Part shown: positions 7,090 through 37,607 of the stretch, in pieces
Position numbering within the stretch: position 1 is the stretch's first letter
Layout: each line of letters starts with the position of its first letter
Assembly: GCF_000166135.1 (NCBI RefSeq)
Contig: NC_014666.1
Span: 1,550,001-1,614,000 of the forward strand
Direction of reading: 5' to 3'
DNA length: 64,000 nt
Source of the DNA: Pseudofrankia inefficax
Lineage (GTDB): Bacteria > Actinomycetota > Actinomycetes > Frankiales > Frankiaceae
Made by a program: the position numbers and the translations under genes
The notes under the pieces: model-generated
The model's input: the letters and a program-made list of their open reading frames with translations, nothing else
Told to the model about the DNA's origin: nothing
Database searches by the model: none

Positions 7090-8196
7090 GTGTTCTTCGC
7101 GCTGACCGATGAGCAGCGGGCGCTCGCCGAGACCGTCCGCGACTATCTCGCGGACCGGTTCGACCTGACCGCCGTCCGGGCCGTCTTCGAGGACACCGCC
7201 GGTGACGGTCACCCGGCCGACCTGTGGAAGGCGTTCGGCGAGCAGGGCTGGCTCGCGGTGCTCGTGCCCGAGGAGAACGACGGGCTCGGCCTCGGCCTGC
7301 TGGACGCGCAGGTCATCGCCCGCGCGCTCGGGGCCGGCGCGGTGCCCGGGCCGTGGCTGGCGACCGTGCTCGCCGGCGAGGCGGTCCGGCTCGCGGGCTC
7401 CGCCGAGCAGCGTGCCGCCGTGCTCGGCCCGCTCGCCGCCGGCGAGCTGGTCGCGACGGTCGCGCTGCGCGCTCCCGGCAAGGCGTTCGACGTGTCCGGG
7501 GTGGGCGTCACCGCCGACGCCGACGGGCGGCTGACCGGGACGGCGTCGCCGGTCGAGTACCCGGCGGTCGCGCGCCTCGCCGTCGTCGCGGCCACCGAGC
7601 CCGACGGCGGGATCGGCCTCTACCTCGTCGAACCGACCGCCCCGGGGGTCACGGTCGCCCCGCACACCAGCTACGACGCCACGACGAGGCTCGGCGGCCT
7701 TACGTTCGCCGGCGCCGCCGGCGAGCGGCTGGCGGGCTCCAGCGGCGACGTGCTCGCCGACCTGAACCGGCGCGGCGCGGTGCTCACCGCCGCCGACCTC
7801 GTCGGCTCCGCGCGGGCCGCGATCACCCGGACCGTCGAGTACGACAAGACCCGGGTCCAGTTCGGCAAGGCGGTCGGCAGCTTCCAGGCGATCAAGCACA
7901 CCCTCGCCGACCTGCACGTCGCGGTCCTGATGGCCGAGCACGCCGCGCTGTACGCCGCGCACGCGCTCGACGAGGCCCTGCCCGACGCCGAGCTCGCCGT
8001 CGCGGTCGCCAAGGCCAAGGCCAACGACGCCGCGACCGCCGCGACCGGCGCGATGATCCAGTACCACGGGGGCATCGGCTTCACCTGGGAGCACGAGGCC
8101 CACTTCTTCTACAAGCGGGCCAAGCGCCTCGTCGGCACCTTCGGCGACTCCGCCCAGCACCTGGACCGCGTCGCCGCGCTCAGCCTCGACAACTGA
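7090..8196 (+). CDS. Acyl-CoA dehydrogenase, small (beta-type) subunit
   Basis: Second acyl-CoA dehydrogenase in the operon, 368 aa from GTG (VFFALTDEQRALAETVRDYL), starting 14 nt after the upstream stop behind AAGGGGACGAGG. It has the N-terminal helical domain, a short and divergent beta-barrel domain, and the C-terminal helical motif RVQFGKAVGSFQAIKHTLAD, with GGIGFTWEHEAHFFYKRAKRL near the end. The poorly conserved middle domain is typical of beta chains in two-gene FadE pairs such as FadE26-FadE27 or FadE28-FadE29 of steroid catabolism. Formation of a heteromer is inferred from the adjacency and the subunit types. Confidence 0.85.
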   Translation: MFFALTDEQRALAETVRDYLADRFDLTAVRAVFEDTAGDGHPADLWKAFGEQGWLAVLVPEENDGLGLGLLDAQVIARALGAGAVPGPWLATVLAGEAVRLAGSAEQRAAVLGPLAAGELVATVALRAPGKAFDVSGVGVTADADGRLTGTASPVEYPAVARLAVVAATEPDGGIGLYLVEPTAPGVTVAPHTSYDATTRLGGLTFAGAAGERLAGSSGDVLADLNRRGAVLTAADLVGSARAAITRTVEYDKTRVQFGKAVGSFQAIKHTLADLHVAVLMAEHAALYAAHALDEALPDAELAVAVAKAKANDAATAATGAMIQYHGGIGFTWEHEAHFFYKRAKRLVGTFGDSAQHLDRVAALSLDN

Positions 8197-8214
8197 GGAC
8201 CCTGGCCCGCGGGG

Positions 8215-9588
8215 TCAGTGGCAGTGCACGCGCCTGGTCCAGAGCAGGACGGGCGGGGTCGCGGTGTCGCTGCCGCCGTAGGTGTGCTGCCAGTCGCCGA
8301 GGGCGTTGGTCTGTTCGGGGCGGACGGCGAGCACCAGGGGAGTGCCGGGGCGGATGCCGGGCCTGCCCTTCGCCGTCGGCATGCCCTCGACCCAGCGGGT
8401 GTAGAGATCGGTGACGTCGGCGGTGATCTCGCGGGGCCTGGTCGCGGTCGCGGCCGGCTGCCCGTCGGCGCCGGGCTGGCCCGCGGCGGCGAGCGCGGCC
8501 GTGTCGCCGTCGCCGACGGGGTTCGGCAGGTTGTACGGCGTCCAGTCGAAGTCGCCGCGCGGCCGGTTCGCGACCAGGTCGAGCGTGGGCACCCTGGCCG
8601 GCACCACGCCGCGGGCCAGGCCCGTCAGCGCCGACGGATAGACCCCCAGCGGATAGGGGCCCTCGTCACCGATCGTGCCCTCGCTCGCCAGCAGCGTCAG
8701 CCGCAGCTGGACCTGGGCCACGCAGGCCAGGGGTGCCGGCAGCAGCGGGAAGACGAGCTCACCGGTGAGCAGGTGGTCGTCGCCGCGGCGCGGCACGTGC
8801 CGGTACATCCGGCCGACCGGGAGCCCACCCGAGGCGGCGGTGACCGCGGTCGGGCGGCCGCTGCCGGCCGCGAACGCGCTCAGCAGGAACGTCCGGGTGG
8901 CCGCGATCGGGACGCCGGGCGACTCGGTGACCGGGGGCGGGGCGGCGGTGGTCGTGGCCACGACCACCGCTGGGGCGCTGGGGGTGGGCAGCAGCGGGCG
9001 CAGCGCCGCCGGCCCGCCGCCCATCACGCCGAGCACCACCGAGCCGAACGCGATCAGCAGGACGGCGCCGCCCGTCGTCGTCAGGAAGATCCGCCCACCA
9101 AGCCCGGGTGACCGCAGCGTGACGCCGAGCCGCCGGTCGAGGCCGCGTTCGACCCGGCGGCCGATGCGAGCGAGAACGGCGCGCGTCTTGCGGGCGCGGC
9201 GACGCGCGAGCCGCGCCGGACCGGCGACGCCTGCCGTCAACAGCCAGGCCAGCCGGACCAGGCGGCGTCCGGACCAGCGCAGGCCCAGGCCCGTATGCGC
9301 CGCCGTCACTCGCCCAGCCCTGGCCGTGGCGTGGGCCGCCTGAACGCTCGCGCGGGTGATCCGCCTGACCCGCGGCGCTGCGCGCGCGCCGGGAATCCTC
9401 GCGAGGCCGGTTCGCGCCGGGCGCCCCTCAGCGGGAGTCCGGTACAGCGCCGCGGTCCGGGCTTCCGCGGCTGCCGGGCCCGTTCCCGAGACCGTCGGCG
9501 TCGTCGGTGGCTCGGGGGGCGCCGGGGCGAGCGGAGCAGGTGGGCTGGCGTCGTCCCGCGTGGTCGTCACCACCGAGAGGTTGTCCAT
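8215..9588 (-). CDS. Single-pass membrane protein with DNRLRE-like C-terminal domain
   Basis: Not assigned to a named family with certainty. Residues 1-165 are Pro/Ala/Arg-rich and very basic. One transmembrane helix (IFLTTTGGAVLLIAFGSVVLGVM) lies near residues 165-190, followed by a Pro/Ser/Thr linker (about 195-225) and a roughly 230-residue extracytoplasmic domain. That domain has alternating hydrophobic strands (ELVFPLLPAPLACVAQVQLRLTLLAS) and an ADVTDLYTRWVEG segment that resembles DNRLRE-type surface domains. The topology, N-in with a large exported domain, is inferred from charge. It overlaps no neighbour and its stop is 18 bp from the convergent acyl-CoA dehydrogenase stop. Confidence 0.65.
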   Translation of the reverse strand: MDNLSVVTTTRDDASPPAPLAPAPPEPPTTPTVSGTGPAAAEARTAALYRTPAEGRPARTGLARIPGARAAPRVRRITRASVQAAHATARAGRVTAAHTGLGLRWSGRRLVRLAWLLTAGVAGPARLARRRARKTRAVLARIGRRVERGLDRRLGVTLRSPGLGGRIFLTTTGGAVLLIAFGSVVLGVMGGGPAALRPLLPTPSAPAVVVATTTAAPPPVTESPGVPIAATRTFLLSAFAAGSGRPTAVTAASGGLPVGRMYRHVPRRGDDHLLTGELVFPLLPAPLACVAQVQLRLTLLASEGTIGDEGPYPLGVYPSALTGLARGVVPARVPTLDLVANRPRGDFDWTPYNLPNPVGDGDTAALAAAGQPGADGQPAATATRPREITADVTDLYTRWVEGMPTAKGRPGIRPGTPLVLAVRPEQTNALGDWQHTYGGSDTATPPVLLWTRRVHCH

Positions 9589-9806
9589 GTGTGAACTCCC
9601 GGGTGTCGACCCCTCTTCGTGGTGAAGATGTCACTCCAAGTCGCGTTCCCGCCTGGAGGCGCGCCGGGTGCACCTGTGGGCCTCCTGTGTCCCGACAGAT
9701 GCCGCTAGCCTGCCGGCAGCACGGTGTCGGGTCGGGGACGCGCGCGCCTACCTCCTGGATCGCTGCTGGTACGTTTCGGCCCGATTCAGACCCTTGGAGT
9801 GCCGCC
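9589..9806. other. Divergent intergenic region
   Basis: 218 bp between the membrane protein (leftward) and the TM2 protein (rightward). No gene or clear repeat is seen beyond promoter-like AT-richer patches. Confidence 0.5.
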
Positions 9807-10472
9807 ATGTCGACCCCAGCTCCTGGCCAGTCGCCGGACCCGTTCGCCAAGCCCGGGCCGCAGCAGACCCCGGCCGGCGGGCCGGCCTACCCGCCGGCTC
9901 CCGGGCCTTACGGCGACCCGACCGCGCCATACTCCGGGGGCTACGCGCCTGGCGCCGGTGACCCGAACGCCGGGTACGGCTACCCGCCCGGCGGCTACCC
10001 GCCCGGGGACCCGAACGCCCAGTACGGCACCCCGCCAGGCGGCGGCTACCCGCCGGCCGGCGACCCGAACGCGCCCTACTACGGCCAGCCCGGCTACCCG
10101 CCTGGCCCGGGTTACCCGCCCGGCCCGGGCTACACCCCGGCGCCCGGTGACCCGGGCTTCGGCTACCCGCAGCCCGGCTACCAGCAGCCCGGCTACGGCG
10201 TGCCCGCCGTCTGGGGCGCGGACCCGGCGGCGCCGTTCGGGCGGCACCAGCTGACGGGTGAGCCGCTCTCCGACAAGGACAAGCTGACCGCCGGCCTGCT
10301 GGAGATCTTCCTCGGCTGGTGCGGCGCCGGCCGGTGGTACCTGGGCGACTACGGGATCGCGACCGCCCAGTTGCTCACCTGCGGTGGCCTGCACATCTGG
10401 TCGCTGATCGACGGCATCATGATGTTGACGGGCAGCGTCCGGGACAAGCAGGGCCGCCCCCTGCGGGACTGA
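9807..10472 (+). CDS. TM2-domain membrane protein with Pro/Gly/Tyr-rich N-terminus
   Basis: 221 aa from the ATG at 9807 (MSTPAPGQSPDP, with TTGGAG upstream). Residues about 1-145 are low complexity with many PPG, GYPP and GDPNA repeats, typical of disordered cytoplasmic tails in actinobacterial membrane proteins. The C-terminal 70 residues form a TM2 domain: two hydrophobic helices (KLTAGLLEIFLGWCGAGRWYLG and TAQLLTCGGLHIWSLIDGIMML) joined by the characteristic short turn, with a conserved DG in the second helix. The function of TM2 proteins in bacteria is not known. It is followed 2 nt later by a LysE-type exporter gene, so the two are co-transcribed. Confidence 0.88.
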   Translation: MSTPAPGQSPDPFAKPGPQQTPAGGPAYPPAPGPYGDPTAPYSGGYAPGAGDPNAGYGYPPGGYPPGDPNAQYGTPPGGGYPPAGDPNAPYYGQPGYPPGPGYPPGPGYTPAPGDPGFGYPQPGYQQPGYGVPAVWGADPAAPFGRHQLTGEPLSDKDKLTAGLLEIFLGWCGAGRWYLGDYGIATAQLLTCGGLHIWSLIDGIMMLTGSVRDKQGRPLRD

Positions 10473-10474
10473 CC

Positions 10475-11113
10475 ATGATCTCCGGAGAGCAGCTGGCGGG
10501 CTTCGCCGTCGCGGCGTTCGTGCTGATCGTGATCCCGGGCCCGAGCGTGCTGTTCGTGGTGGGGCGGGCGCTGTCGCTGGGGCGGGGCGCCGCGATCGCG
10601 AGCGTCGTCGGCAGCGCCCTGGGCAACTACGTCGTCGCGGTGCTGGTCGCCTTCGGCCTCGGCACGCTGGTGGAGCGCTCGGAGCTCGCGTTCCTGATCA
10701 TCAAGCTGGTCGGCGGGGCGTACCTGGTCTGGCTGGGGGTCCAGGCGTTGCGCCACCGGCGGGCGTTGGCCGAGGTGGCCCAGGCCCGGGTCGCGGCGAC
10801 GTCCCGGTGGCGGACGGCCCGGCAGGGCTTCGTCGTCGGCCTCACCAACCCCAAGGCACTGATCATGTTCGGCGCGGTGCTCCCGCCGTTCGTCAGCCGG
10901 GACGCGGGGCACGTGCCGGCCCAGATGCTGCTGATGTCGCTGGTCGCCATCTGCATCGGGCTGGTCTCGGACACCGTGTGGGCGATGACCGCGAGCGCCG
11001 TCCGGTCGTGGTTCACCCACGACACCCGCCGGCTCGCGGCCGTCGGCGGCGCCGGCGGCCTGGCGATGATCGGCGTCGGCCTGACGGTAGCCCTCACCGG
11101 CCGCCGCGGCTGA
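10475..11113 (+). CDS. LysE/RhtB-family amino-acid exporter
   Basis: 212-aa integral membrane protein of the LysE/RhtB translocator family, which exports amino acids or derivatives by proton antiport. The family's early motif is present (FVLIVIPGPSVLFVVGRALSLGRGAAIASVVG), followed by GGAYLVWLGVQALR, the cytoplasmic loop, and the NPKALIMFGAVLPPFV segment with the conserved NPK. Five to six hydrophobic helices are predicted by eye. The ATG lies 2 nt after the TM2 gene stop. The exported substrate cannot be read from sequence. Confidence 0.9.
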   Translation: MISGEQLAGFAVAAFVLIVIPGPSVLFVVGRALSLGRGAAIASVVGSALGNYVVAVLVAFGLGTLVERSELAFLIIKLVGGAYLVWLGVQALRHRRALAEVAQARVAATSRWRTARQGFVVGLTNPKALIMFGAVLPPFVSRDAGHVPAQMLLMSLVAICIGLVSDTVWAMTASAVRSWFTHDTRRLAAVGGAGGLAMIGVGLTVALTGRRG

Positions 11114-29843: not shown

Positions 29844-30218
29844 ATGGCTACTTCAGGAGCTTCCACAGTGACGACCAGTGAGCCGGCGCTCGCGCGCTGC
29901 TCGTTCTGCGGCAAGGACCAGAATTCGGTCGCCAAGCTGGTCGCAGGTCCGGGCGTCTACATCTGCAACGTCTGCGTCGACCTCTGCAACCAGATCATCC
30001 CGCTCCCGGCGCCCGAGCTCGGCTCCTGGGACGAACAGTCCGATGACGAGCTGCTCGCCAGCCTGGCCCGGATTCAGGCCGTCGTTTCCCAGGTCGACGC
30101 CGCTGTCCACCACCACGTGGACGCCCTGCGCCGCCGGGGAATCAGCTGGACCCGCATCGGCGAGACCCTCGGCGTGACGAAGCAGGCCGCGTGGGAGCGC
30201 TTCTCCGGCGAGGACTGA
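29844..30218 (+). CDS. ClpX-type zinc-finger protein with C-terminal HTH
   Basis: 124-aa protein without the ClpX ATPase. Residues 17-50 form a ClpX C4 zinc finger ([28 protein letters not shown]) with Cys19, Cys22, Cys41 and Cys44. After an acidic linker and a short helix ([31 protein letters not shown]) comes an HTH-like end, [21 protein letters not shown]. The zinc finger of ClpX mediates dimerisation and adaptor/substrate recognition, so the protein could be a regulator or a Clp adaptor; both are inference. There is no ribosome site: the predicted transcript starts at the ATG. The tandem palindromes in its promoter may be its own target. Confidence 0.85.
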
Positions 30219-30279: not shown

Positions 30280-30771
30280 CTAGAGAGGCACCAGCGTCGT
30301 GGTCGTTGCCGGCGCGAGCGTGGTGGTCGTCGGCGGTGCCAGTGTCGTGGTGGGTGCCAGCGTGGTGGTGGGTGCCAGCGTGGTGGTGGGTGCCAGCGTC
30401 GTCGTGGTCGTCGGTACGAGCGTCGTCGTGGGTGCGGGCGTCGTCGGTACGAGCGTGGTGGTCGGCGCGAGGGTCGTGGTGGGCACGAGTGTGGTCGTCG
30501 GCGCCGCGCTGGTAGTGGTGGACGGTGGCGCGGTGGTCGTCGTCGACGTGACCGGCGGCTTGGTCGTCGTCCGCGGTGGGTGCGTCGTGTGCGGCGGCCG
30601 TGTGGTGTGTGGCGGCCTCGGGCCGCACCACTTGCCGAGGGTGTTGACGGTGGGAACGCTGAAACCGAGCGCGACCATCTGCTTGAGGAAGGACCGCCGG
30701 CCGGTGCTGCCGGGAAGGCTGTCCTCGTCGGCCGGGCCGTCCGCCGAATCGTCCCGCGGGCGCTCCTGCAT
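30280..30771 (-). CDS. Thr/Pro-rich repeat protein with Tat-like motif
   Basis: 163 aa, no named family. Residues 1-24 are charged and acidic. Residues 25-42 read RRSFLKQMVALGFSVPTV, a twin-arginine-like motif followed by a short, weakly hydrophobic stretch, then NTLGKWCG with the only Cys. Residues about 54-163 are almost entirely Thr, Pro, Leu, Ala and Val, with about ten copies of a TTTL(A/V)P hexapeptide. The DNA under it repeats with an 18-bp period. Such segments are mucin-like and suited to O-glycosylation on Thr. It follows a glycosyltransferase-PqqD gene by 77 bp on the same strand, so it may be that enzyme's substrate. Confidence 0.75.
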   Translation of the reverse strand: MQERPRDDSADGPADEDSLPGSTGRRSFLKQMVALGFSVPTVNTLGKWCGPRPPHTTRPPHTTHPPRTTTKPPVTSTTTTAPPSTTTSAAPTTTLVPTTTLAPTTTLVPTTPAPTTTLVPTTTTTLAPTTTLAPTTTLAPTTTLAPPTTTTLAPATTTTLVPL

Positions 30772-30848
30772 GTTCCCCCCTACATGTCATCCACCGAGGT
30801 CGCCAGATACCGAAGGCGCCTGGATACCGAGGGCGCCAAGATATCGCA

Positions 30849-32567
30849 TCACGGTAAGGCGATCCCGGATTCCGCGAGAACCTCGATTTCGCGGAGCTGC
30901 GCGACGCAGGTGGCCACCTCGACGGACGGGGCCGGGGTCAGCGCGAAGATCTCGGCGAGCGACTCGGCGATCTGCGCGACGGTGCGGCCGCCGTCGCAGA
31001 GTTCCAGAATGACCGCGGCGGTGTTGTTCAGACGGTGTTCGCGCGGCGGGGAGCCCTGGCGAACCAGGAAGCCGTCCGTGAGCTGTATCACCTCGTTCCC
31101 CGGCGCGAGCACGGGCCGGTCGTCGTCCGACCGGTCGTAGGAGAAGTCGACCGCGGTGAGAATCCCGTCGGCAATACGTTCGCGAAGGTACCGGCGCGGG
31201 TCGTCCCAGGCGTTACGGAATTCCATAAAGGTGGGTGCGTCGTGTGGAAAATCCGCCAGGAGGCGTTCGTAGGCCCTTTGATGTACAGCCACCGTGAGGG
31301 GCGCGCTCCCGTCGCCGCCGGCCACGGACGCTGGTAGCAGGCACACGTCCCAGTCCCGGTCCGCGACCACCGCGAGCCGGTCCCGGTGATCCGGCCGGGT
31401 CGGTACCACCGGGCCGGCCGGGTCGTCGACCACGAGAACCTGGCCGTAGCCGCGCCGCGCCGCCGCCGTGAGAGCGGCCCGCCAGCGAGACAGCCGCCGC
31501 CACTCCGGATCGGCCGCCGGCCCGGCATCCGCCTGGACCCGCTCCACCCGCCAGGCGACGTCGGCCGGGTGGAGGTGGGCGTCGCAGGTCTCGTCGTCGC
31601 CGGCCACGCACAGAACCGCGTCGAAGACGGCCAGGGGATGCGCGGACTGGGCGCGGGCCTGCCCGAACACCGCGTCGGCGTCGACGTCCGGGCCGAGCAG
31701 CTCCCGGAAATGCTCCTCGATCGGCGCGTGATCCCAGCCGATCTCCGACCAGGCCACCTGGTAGTTCCGAATCCGGTCCTCCCACCGGTTCGCGTACCCG
31801 GTGCCGGCGGGCCGTGGGAAGCGGTGCAGCCAGCCCAGCCCGGGATGGCAGAGCACCCGTGCGCCCCGCTGCCGGAACTTCTCGTGCAGGTAGCCCTCCT
31901 CCGCGCCGAATCCGCGCAGCCTGGGGTTCAGCCCGGGCCACGCCTCCCGGCGGCAGGCGAACAGACCGAGCCCCTGCATCGCGATCTCGAACGGCTCACC
32001 GCTCGGGTCGTCGACCCGCGGGTCACGCCCCCACTGCCCGAACATGCCGGCGCCCCAGGTCGGCTCCAGATGCGTCGCGGCCGGCTCACCGAGACTGTCG
32101 TACAACAGCGGCCCCTGGAGCAGGTCCCGGCTTTCTGGATGGGCCTCGAACCAGTTCACCAGGTGGGTGAGCGCACCGGGCCGCAGCAGCACGTGTGAAT
32201 CGACGCAGCAGACGATGTCCGCGTCGGTCTCGCGAAAGACCAGGTCACGCACGGCCGTGCCGCGATAGCCGGCGAAGGGGACGTATCGATAGCCGGGAAT
32301 CCAGTCCGCCAGGGCCCGCAAAGGCTCCGCCGCGGCTCCCTCGGGGTGGTTGTCGATGACCACGAAGGACAGCTCCGCCGATACCTCGGACTGGTAGAGC
32401 CGTATCGCCTGGATCGTGAACCAGACCCCATCGAAGTCGTCGTAGGTCGCCATACCCACGCAAAGGCGTGGTAGCGCCCGGCCCCGTTCGTCTGGCACGA
32501 ACCGAAATCCTACCGTCGCTCTGAGGACGAGCGGTCCTGGCCAGCTTTGATGGGTGGCTGATTTCAC
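30849..32567 (-). CDS. Glycosyltransferase with C-terminal PqqD domain
   Basis: 572 aa from GTG. Residues about 34-270 are a GT-A family 2 domain: LCVGMATYDDFDGVWFTIQAI, metal/nucleotide motif CCVDSHVLLRPG (Asp123, His125), GAGMFGQWGRDP, and GLGLFACRREAWPGLN followed by GFGAEEGYLHEKF. Residues about 320-470 look like a second, GT25-like segment (AVLCVAGDDETCDAHLHPADVAWRVERV, then GYGQVLVVDDPAG). The last 85 residues match PqqD (VIQLTDGFLVRQG, HRLNNTAAVILELCDGGRTVAQIAESL), the peptide-binding RRE fold of RiPP systems. The fusion predicts an enzyme that grips a peptide and glycosylates it. The Thr-rich Tat-motif protein is encoded just downstream. Confidence 0.85.
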   Translation of the reverse strand: MKSATHQSWPGPLVLRATVGFRFVPDERGRALPRLCVGMATYDDFDGVWFTIQAIRLYQSEVSAELSFVVIDNHPEGAAAEPLRALADWIPGYRYVPFAGYRGTAVRDLVFRETDADIVCCVDSHVLLRPGALTHLVNWFEAHPESRDLLQGPLLYDSLGEPAATHLEPTWGAGMFGQWGRDPRVDDPSGEPFEIAMQGLGLFACRREAWPGLNPRLRGFGAEEGYLHEKFRQRGARVLCHPGLGWLHRFPRPAGTGYANRWEDRIRNYQVAWSEIGWDHAPIEEHFRELLGPDVDADAVFGQARAQSAHPLAVFDAVLCVAGDDETCDAHLHPADVAWRVERVQADAGPAADPEWRRLSRWRAALTAAARRGYGQVLVVDDPAGPVVPTRPDHRDRLAVVADRDWDVCLLPASVAGGDGSAPLTVAVHQRAYERLLADFPHDAPTFMEFRNAWDDPRRYLRERIADGILTAVDFSYDRSDDDRPVLAPGNEVIQLTDGFLVRQGSPPREHRLNNTAAVILELCDGGRTVAQIAESLAEIFALTPAPSVEVATCVAQLREIEVLAESGIALP

Positions 32568-36316: not shown

Positions 36317-36403
36317 CGAAGCGGCGCCCTGACTGCTCCGGGCCTTCGGCGGATTCCCTGCCCGCGCCGGAGCGTTCGCCGAGGGCGCCCCGCCGCCCGA
36401 GGC

Positions 36404-36666
36404 GGTGCGGCCGATCTTCGCGTTCCGCGGTGCGGCCGATCTTCGCGTTCCGCGGTGCGGCCGATCTTCGCGTTCCGCGGTGCGGCCGATCTTCGCGTTC
36501 CGCGGTGCGGTCGATCTTCGCGTTCCGCGGTGCGGTCGATCTTCGCGTTCCGCGGTGCGGTCGATCTTCGCGTTCCGCGGTGCGGTCGATCTTCGCGTTC
36601 CGCGGTGCGGTCGATCTTCGCGTTCCGCGGTGCGGTCGATCTTCGCGTTCCGCGGTGCGGCCGATC
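36404..36666. repeat. 25-bp tandem repeat, ten full copies
   Basis: Unit GGTGCGGyCGATCTTCGCGT plus TCCGC, repeated exactly every 25 bp from 36404, ten complete copies and a 13-bp partial one. Copies 1-4 and the last partial have C at the variable position, copies 5-10 have T, so the array grew by block duplication. Because 25 is not a multiple of 3 the array is open in all forward frames and produces a false 25-residue peptide repeat; I do not consider it coding. Confidence 0.95.
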
Positions 36667-36711
36667 AGAGCACAGTGCTATGTGGCAGCCCGGCGGCTGG
36701 AAGGCGGCTGG

Positions 36712-37607
36712 TCAGTCGCTGGATTCGGCGGCGCGGCGGGCGTCACGCATCGAGCGGGCGTCCTGGCCGGCGAGGGGGTCGGTTCCGACCTCGGCGTTGT
36801 GGGCGTGCGCCAGGTGGTGCAGTCCGAAGACGGAGTCCATGCCGGCCTGGAGGCCCATCAGGTCTTCGGCCTGGTTCACCGCCTTCTTGGTGAGGGCGAG
36901 TCCAAGGCGGGGCATCGTCGCGATGCGCTCGGCGACCGCGGTCACCTCGGTGGCGAGGCCGTCGCGGGGGACCACCCGGTTGACCATGCCCAGCTCCAGT
37001 GCGCGGCGGGCGGCGACGCGTTCGCCGAGGAACAGGAACTCCTTCGCCGCTCTCGGCCCCATCACCCACGGATGCGCGAAGTACTCGACCCCCGGAATGC
37101 CCATCCGCACGACCGGGTCGGCGAAGAACGCGTCGTCGGAGGCGATGATCAGGTCGCAGACCCAGGCGAGCATCAGACCGCCGGCGATGCAGGCGCCGTG
37201 CACCTGGGCGATCATCGGCTTCGGCAGTTCCCGCCACCGCCGGCACATTCCCAGGTACACCTCCTGCTCGCGGGCGAACCGGCTCTCCGCGCCGGAGGCG
37301 CCGACGTGGTCCCACCACAGGCCCGCGCGCCGGGTGAACGACTGGTCGATGTCCCGCCCCGGGGTTCCGATGTCGTGGCCGGCGCTGAAGTGCCGGCCCG
37401 CGCCGGCCAGCACGATGACCTTCACCTCGGGATCGGCCGCGGCCCGGTAGAACGCGTCGTCCAGGGCGTAGGTCATCTTCGAGTTCTGGGCGTTACGGAA
37501 CTCGGGCCGGTTCATCGTGACCCGCGCGACCGGCCCGGTCACCTCGTACAGCACCACCGGAGGCTCGGCATCGTCGGCCGTCGGCGCCGGCTGGGCGATC
37601 TGCTCGG

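Follow-up and report, generated by a model that had tools for sequence, protein, structure and literature searches.

The window analyzed here is a 64,000-nucleotide stretch of the Pseudofrankia inefficax genome (contig NC_014666.1; below, the Frankia genome), and it contains two adjacent genes on the minus strand. The larger of these (30849..32567, minus strand) encodes a glycosyltransferase (GT) fused to a PqqD domain and is 572 residues long as listed. The true start is probably the GTG at 32498 (residue 24), which would make the listed GTG 23 codons too long, because the orthologue in G002, a second genome of the genus, has in-frame stops in the preceding stretch. Promoter and terminator scans found nothing. 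A sequence-only reading of this DNA had described the protein as a GT2-type enzyme with a C-terminal PqqD domain, and both domains are indeed found above their Pfam cut-offs, Glycos_transf_2 at residues 41-145 (E 2.6e-6) and PqqD (PF05402) at residues 511-558 (E 5.1e-7). In the AF2 model, the GT-A core spans residues 33-314 (31626..32471, minus strand), and its predicted fold is nearest to the polypeptide GalNAc-transferases of family GT27. The PqqD domain, also known as an RRE, can be drawn more broadly at residues 485-566 (30870..31115, minus strand), where it aligns with the PqqD domains of other GT fusions. It is also matched by TIGR03859 at E 1.5e-6, which is under the equivalog cut-off of that model, and the gene has no HprK match in NCBIfam. 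Between core and PqqD lies the second, GT25-like segment of the earlier description (residues 316-480; 31128..31622, minus strand). Some relatives have GT25 domains that match PF01755, and residues ~316-480 align with these, but the Frankia segment has no Pfam match of its own and its motifs are eroded. The GT25 motifs INLDxRxDR, GCxLSHR, and EDD are lost in all three Frankia proteins, with VDD standing where EDD is expected, and are retained by most relatives. The Frankia segment is degenerate, and its role is probably structural.

The second gene (30280..30771, minus strand) begins 77 bp past the GT stop and encodes a small Thr/Pro-rich protein of 163 residues. It is made up of an N-terminal leader with the pattern RRSFLKQMVALGFSVPTVNTLGKWCG (30622..30771, minus strand), proposed to serve as the PqqD recognition element and a Tat-like signal, and a tail of TTTL(A/V)P repeats (30283..30615, minus strand), the proposed glycan acceptor. 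The tail is as Thr-rich as had been claimed, with 51 Thr and 24 Pro among about 111 residues. The protein carries GRRSFLKQMVALGFSVPTVNTLGKWCG and its N-terminus reads RRSFLK, so that the RRxFLK pattern behind the claimed Tat motif is present, but no TAT model of NCBIfam or Pfam, TAT_signal_seq included, matches the Frankia protein; analogous partners in three other loci (L121, L125, and L014) do match TAT_signal_seq. A profile of the KWTKPVV-AHA leaders discussed below does not match the Frankia leader significantly (E 0.31 for its orthologue), and the Frankia genome holds no paralogue of the leader (other matches E >0.5).

The GT is found in two further genomes of the genus among those searched, G002 and G006. 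The G002 locus is syntenic with that of the window. In G006, the GT core is 90% identical, the N-terminal part of the small protein is 51% identical, and the two genes are separated by a gap of 8 bp. None of the flanking window genes tested is found around the G006 pair; only the GT and the small protein are common to the regions compared, and the two genes therefore travel as a pair. The repeat unit changes from TTTLAP to PPSTTTV in G006, and Thr-richness is retained. The persistence of the pair across changes of context and repeat sequence would be best explained by joint function. The window pair is flanked directly by genes for a ClpX-type zinc finger protein and a glyoxalase-fold protein, and the neighbors in G006 are different. 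The zinc finger protein (29844-30218, plus strand; 124 residues) has the C4 finger of ClpX (E 1.7e-17), no ATPase, and a weak helix-turn-helix match. Elsewhere in the window, at ~36380-36730, short tandem repeats give reiterated RSSRSAVRPIFAFRGAADLRVPRCG in at least two reading frames and probably represent a DNA repeat rather than protein. The only other PqqD genes of the same genome (L001 and L002) are not GT fusions; their loci are lasso-peptide-like, with ORFs that by eye resemble asparagine synthase and transglutaminase.

The enzymes of family GT27 O-glycosylate Thr and Ser residues in eukaryotes. The predicted Frankia core has AF2 pLDDT above 90 in most blocks, and in a VIA-align ranking of PDB entries, polypeptide GalNAc-transferases take all of the first 28 places (Z 21.1-24.0 over ~250 residues), followed by RmlT and chondroitin polymerase (K4CP) at Z 20.2. 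Foldseek places COLGALT1 first (E 2.6e-12) and GalNAc-transferases among its top ranks. Three motifs are invariant in 100 of 100 homologous cores: D123-x-H125, E223-E224, and H248-R-F. By analogy with GT27, the DxH motif (D123-S124-H125; 32193..32201, minus strand) would form the metal site, and H248 of the invariant W-x-H-R-F motif (31824..31826, minus strand) is, by alignment, the counterpart of the GT27 metal His. In GalNAc-transferases, the Asp and His of DxH and a distal His coordinate Mn2+ (PMC11074326). The WxHRF region aligns weakly with GalNAc-T7 (E 0.16), and Glyco_transf_7C gives weak matches in 5 of 33 sequences (best E 0.004). By sequence, the core has no significant similarity to GT27 (GalNAc-T7 E 0.14-0.16, T12 E 0.38), and for this reason, we describe the core as GT27-like in predicted fold and motif and do not file it in the family. 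Like GT27 enzymes of animals and Apicomplexa, it has the nearest fold, the DxH and third His, and an apparent Thr/Pro-rich acceptor. Unlike them, it shares only ~13-16% identity, belongs to a cytoplasmic bacterial or viral protein, and has relatives with PqqD or HprK modules; the Frankia GT has no recognized ricin lectin domain and instead has PqqD and the degenerate GT25-like segment. The collagen galactosyltransferase COLGALT1/GLT25D1 (GT25) resembles the Frankia protein in having a GT-A domain followed by GT25 in tandem, but across both domains the TM score is 0.27-0.29 with an rmsd of ~22 Å, and the GT25 active site is lost in the Frankia protein.

Homologues of the core at 45-60% identity are found in Oricola, Brucella, and Devosia records, in gammaproteobacteria including Thiomargarita and Parabeggiatoa, and in Desulfocapsa, Candidatus Binatia, Actinomycetota, and Anaerolineae (Chloroflexota). 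The core is present in 3 of 394 Actinomycetes genomes, 4 of 369 gammaproteobacterial genomes, 1 of 385 alphaproteobacterial genomes, and 2 of 251 genomes from the phylum of the Anaerolineae record, and no homologue was found in the plasmid collection at E 1e-20. The family is rare yet widespread. Its module architecture is variable. The core is fused to PqqD in the window protein, L012, L015, and L123 (and in L122 by alignment) and to HprK_rel_A-like N-termini in L008, L009, L011, L016, L121, and L125, the latter scoring 33-101 bits, under the 200-bit equivalog cut-off. In L124, it is fused to TPR repeats instead of PqqD. Fusion to GT25 is frequent, and fusion to a GT32-type domain occurs once; most cellular loci have PqqD or HprK-related modules within the GT polypeptide or beside it. 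The L123 protein (7797-10490) combines a GT32-type DXD domain, PqqD, the GT27-like core, and GT25 in one polypeptide, giving three glycosyltransferase modules and one peptide-binding domain.

The pairing of these GTs with small RR-leader and Thr-rich neighbors recurs in unrelated bacteria, although it is not universal. An ORF was counted as Thr-rich when Thr made up 40% or more of a 30-residue stretch. Of 20 dereplicated cellular loci, 11 have such an ORF no farther than 4 kb from the GT, against an expectation of 5.8% per locus from random DNA sampled in three of the genomes (400 kb in total; binomial P 2.7e-9, phylogenetic dependence ignored). Ten random 20-kb regions of the window genome (200 kb) held three Thr-rich ORFs, and 200 kb from two other genomes held none. 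The repeat units vary among partners (TTTLAP, PPSTTTV, TTTATP, TTTSAP, TTTEEP, and poly-T), with Thr-richness being constant. Most partners start with an RR leader. An RR-leader protein adjoins the GT in 14 of the 20 loci, and in 10 of these the leader is of the type RRxxxK...KWTKPVVDSVVLPAHAxTS (RR...KWTKPVVDSVVLPAHA); proteins with such RR...KWTKPVVDSVVLPAHA leaders are absent from the 400 kb of control DNA. No leader protein is found near the GT in L016, L017, and L020, or in the truncated L013 and L126; the sole Thr-rich ORF of L016 sits at the 0.40 threshold, 2 kb off. The partners in L010 and L012 have no Thr tail. Directly after the GT in L014 (4120-5016), a PqqD domain, an RR leader, a Big_9-like domain, and a Thr-rich tail are joined in one polypeptide, apparently a substrate with its recognition domain in cis.

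The KWTKPVVDSVVLPAHA leaders form a paralogous family that is strong in six of 274 gammaproteobacterial genomes. It is present in 4 of 4 GT-positive and 2 of 270 GT-negative genomes (Fisher P 6.5e-8, in a sample centered on one of the four GT-positive genomes). Within the six leader-bearing genomes, Thr tails are found on 4 of 6 GT-adjacent leader proteins and on 0 of 20 elsewhere (hypergeometric P ~0.001, calculated by hand; the four include a pair of tandem paralogues). This is a strict count in which a weak case in G601 is not scored as Thr-rich. The family members with no Thr tail indicate that the leader is a general tag and that the Thr tail accompanies the GT.

The GT is also encoded by 116 uncultivated viral contigs, mostly as the core alone. 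After dereplication, a Thr-rich ORF lies within 3 kb in 7 of 32 viral loci (7 in 180 kb versus 2 in 250 kb farther away), and in 4 of 32, an upstream protein with a Thr-rich C-terminal tail ends 10-48 bp before the GT. Most viral copies lie amid replication or packaging genes with no Thr-rich neighbor. The annotated phage collection gave no match to the core at E 1e-15 or to two viral-contig GTs at E 1e-5, although terminases were found in that collection; the viral copies of this analysis are thus from uncultivated contigs only. Neither the viral GTs nor their Thr-rich neighbors have a family in PHROGs. In one contig (IMGVR_UViG_3300025282_000073; L062, 6472-8852), the GT directly follows a terminase large subunit related to that of Pelagibacter phage HTVC027P. 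This places it in a packaging module, in contrast to the viral copies with Thr-tail neighbors.

The Frankia pair is probably a cytoplasmic, leader-guided cassette for mucin-type protein O-glycosylation whose product is then exported. In this model, the C-terminal PqqD/RRE domain of the enzyme would hold the small protein by its N-terminal RR leader in the cytoplasm, and the GalNAc-transferase-like core would use a nucleotide sugar to glycosylate many Thr residues in the Thr/Pro tail. Export of the glycosylated product, probably by Tat with the RR leader as signal, would then display it as a small bacterial mucin at the cell exterior. Where relatives have an active GT25 domain, this may add to the first sugar. 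The model is built on the domains, adjacency, and co-mobility of the pair, the Thr-rich partners in distant lineages, the core fold, and the metal motif, which are seen in the sequences and structural models; from these, we infer a donor sugar and linkage, the PqqD-leader contact, export, and a coat or adhesion role. The peptide-glycosylation system put forward in the sequence-only reading is largely borne out, with a significant PqqD match and GTs that repeatedly adjoin RR-leader or Thr-rich proteins. Serine-rich repeat protein glycosylation (GtfA/B) and the glycocins (SunS) are known examples of cytoplasmic O- or S-glycosylation of low-complexity or small proteins before export, although their GT folds and partners differ from those described here as far as is known.

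The strongest alternative, to which we give roughly one chance in four, is that the enzyme glycosylates Thr-rich tails without PqqD binding the RR leader. PqqD would then be vestigial or a scaffold, and the Thr-rich sequence alone would be recognized, as by GalNAc-transferases. The viral GTs are consistent with this, as they consist of the core alone and yet some adjoin Thr-rich tails, and several cellular GTs also have no PqqD. However, PqqD or HprK-related modules recur in or beside the GT in most cellular loci, the L014 protein fuses PqqD to an RR-leader/Thr-rich protein, and leader binding is the known role of the RRE fold (PMC7470986). The PqqD of L014 has the β3-α3 PqqD fold, resembles 5SXY and 6JX3, and is close to ScmD and PqqD_rel_X. 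In the AF2 model of this natural PqqD-leader fusion, the leader has a pLDDT of ~45-55 and is not docked with confidence. The GT relatives with HprK_rel_A-like N-termini recall the HPr-rel-A and SynChlorMet cassettes (HprK_rel_A, PqqD_rel_X, and ScmC/ScmD), but unlike these, they fall under the equivalog cut-offs and are fused to glycosyltransferases, and the Frankia pair has no radical SAM partner beside it.

Alternatively, the pair could belong to a classical RiPP natural-product cluster in which a glycosylated antimicrobial peptide is cut from its leader, which we consider improbable. An RRE fusion with a small precursor-like partner is what such clusters contain, and a modifying enzyme fused to PqqD beside a small leader-bearing protein is shared with RRE-dependent systems such as PqqD, lasso B1, and NisB. 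RRE-Finder (2020) reported RRE-glycosyltransferase fusions as possible novel RiPP classes, with no mention of Thr-rich pairing (PMC7470986). Unlike in these systems, the leader is RR and Tat-like, the enzyme is GT27-like, and the product looks like an exported mucin-like protein rather than a short peptide. There is no peptidase, protease, transporter (ABC included), or other maturation gene beside the Frankia pair, and the neighbors change in G006. The tails are long, repetitive, and quick to turn over, traits that suit a mucin-like coat better than a defined peptide.

It is similarly improbable that the Thr-rich protein leaves the cell without modification, to be O-mannosylated on the outside by a Pmt-type (GT39) enzyme, with the GT-PqqD protein making some other glycoconjugate and its adjacency being incidental. 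Actinobacterial Pmt glycosylates exported Thr/Pro-rich proteins, and seven PF02366 matches are present in the genome. Protein O-glycosylation in actinobacteria is described in PMC6593405. The PF02366 matches are, however, weak and partial, with E 5e-10 at best. In addition, GTs of this family adjoin Thr-rich proteins in alphaproteobacteria, gammaproteobacteria, and viral contigs as well, and the two genes stay together in moving from one Frankia genome to another. Finally, an ordinary surface-polysaccharide GT2 with a Thr tail that arose beside it by low-complexity drift is very improbable and already largely contradicted, for although GT2-family HMM scores are only modest and chance Thr-rich ORFs occur in high-GC DNA (3 per 200 kb), the enrichment of Thr-rich ORFs (11 of 20 loci), the restriction of Thr tails to GT-adjacent leader paralogues, and the GT27-like fold with its DxH motif all argue against it.

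Leader-guided mucin-type O-glycosylation may extend well beyond the Frankia pair. A broader proposal, for which we see an even chance, is that bacteria and microbial viruses share a prokaryotic, cross-phylum GalNAc-transferase-like class that acts on the Thr-rich tails of Tat-leader proteins or of viral proteins encoded directly upstream, with RiPP-style leader recognition (PqqD or HprK-related modules) in bacteria. Mucin-type O-glycosylation is viewed as a trait of eukaryotes, and the open-access papers searched contain no description of the GT27-like core, its Thr-rich partners, or their cross-phylum recurrence. If the proposal is true, dense coats of O-glycans would have arisen or spread among prokaryotes as well, RiPP leader recognition and protein glycosylation would be joined as fields, and a compact genetic, leader-directed means to glycosylate chosen proteins in bacteria would be at hand. 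It also suggests a testable partner class for orphan PqqD and HprK-related modules.

Members of the KWTKPVVDSVVLPAHA leader family are also found in other settings. In four loci of G401 and G486 (L154, L155, L165, and L168), they adjoin different GT-like genes and a sulfotransferase-like gene, as judged by eye, which hints at several modifying enzymes served by one leader.
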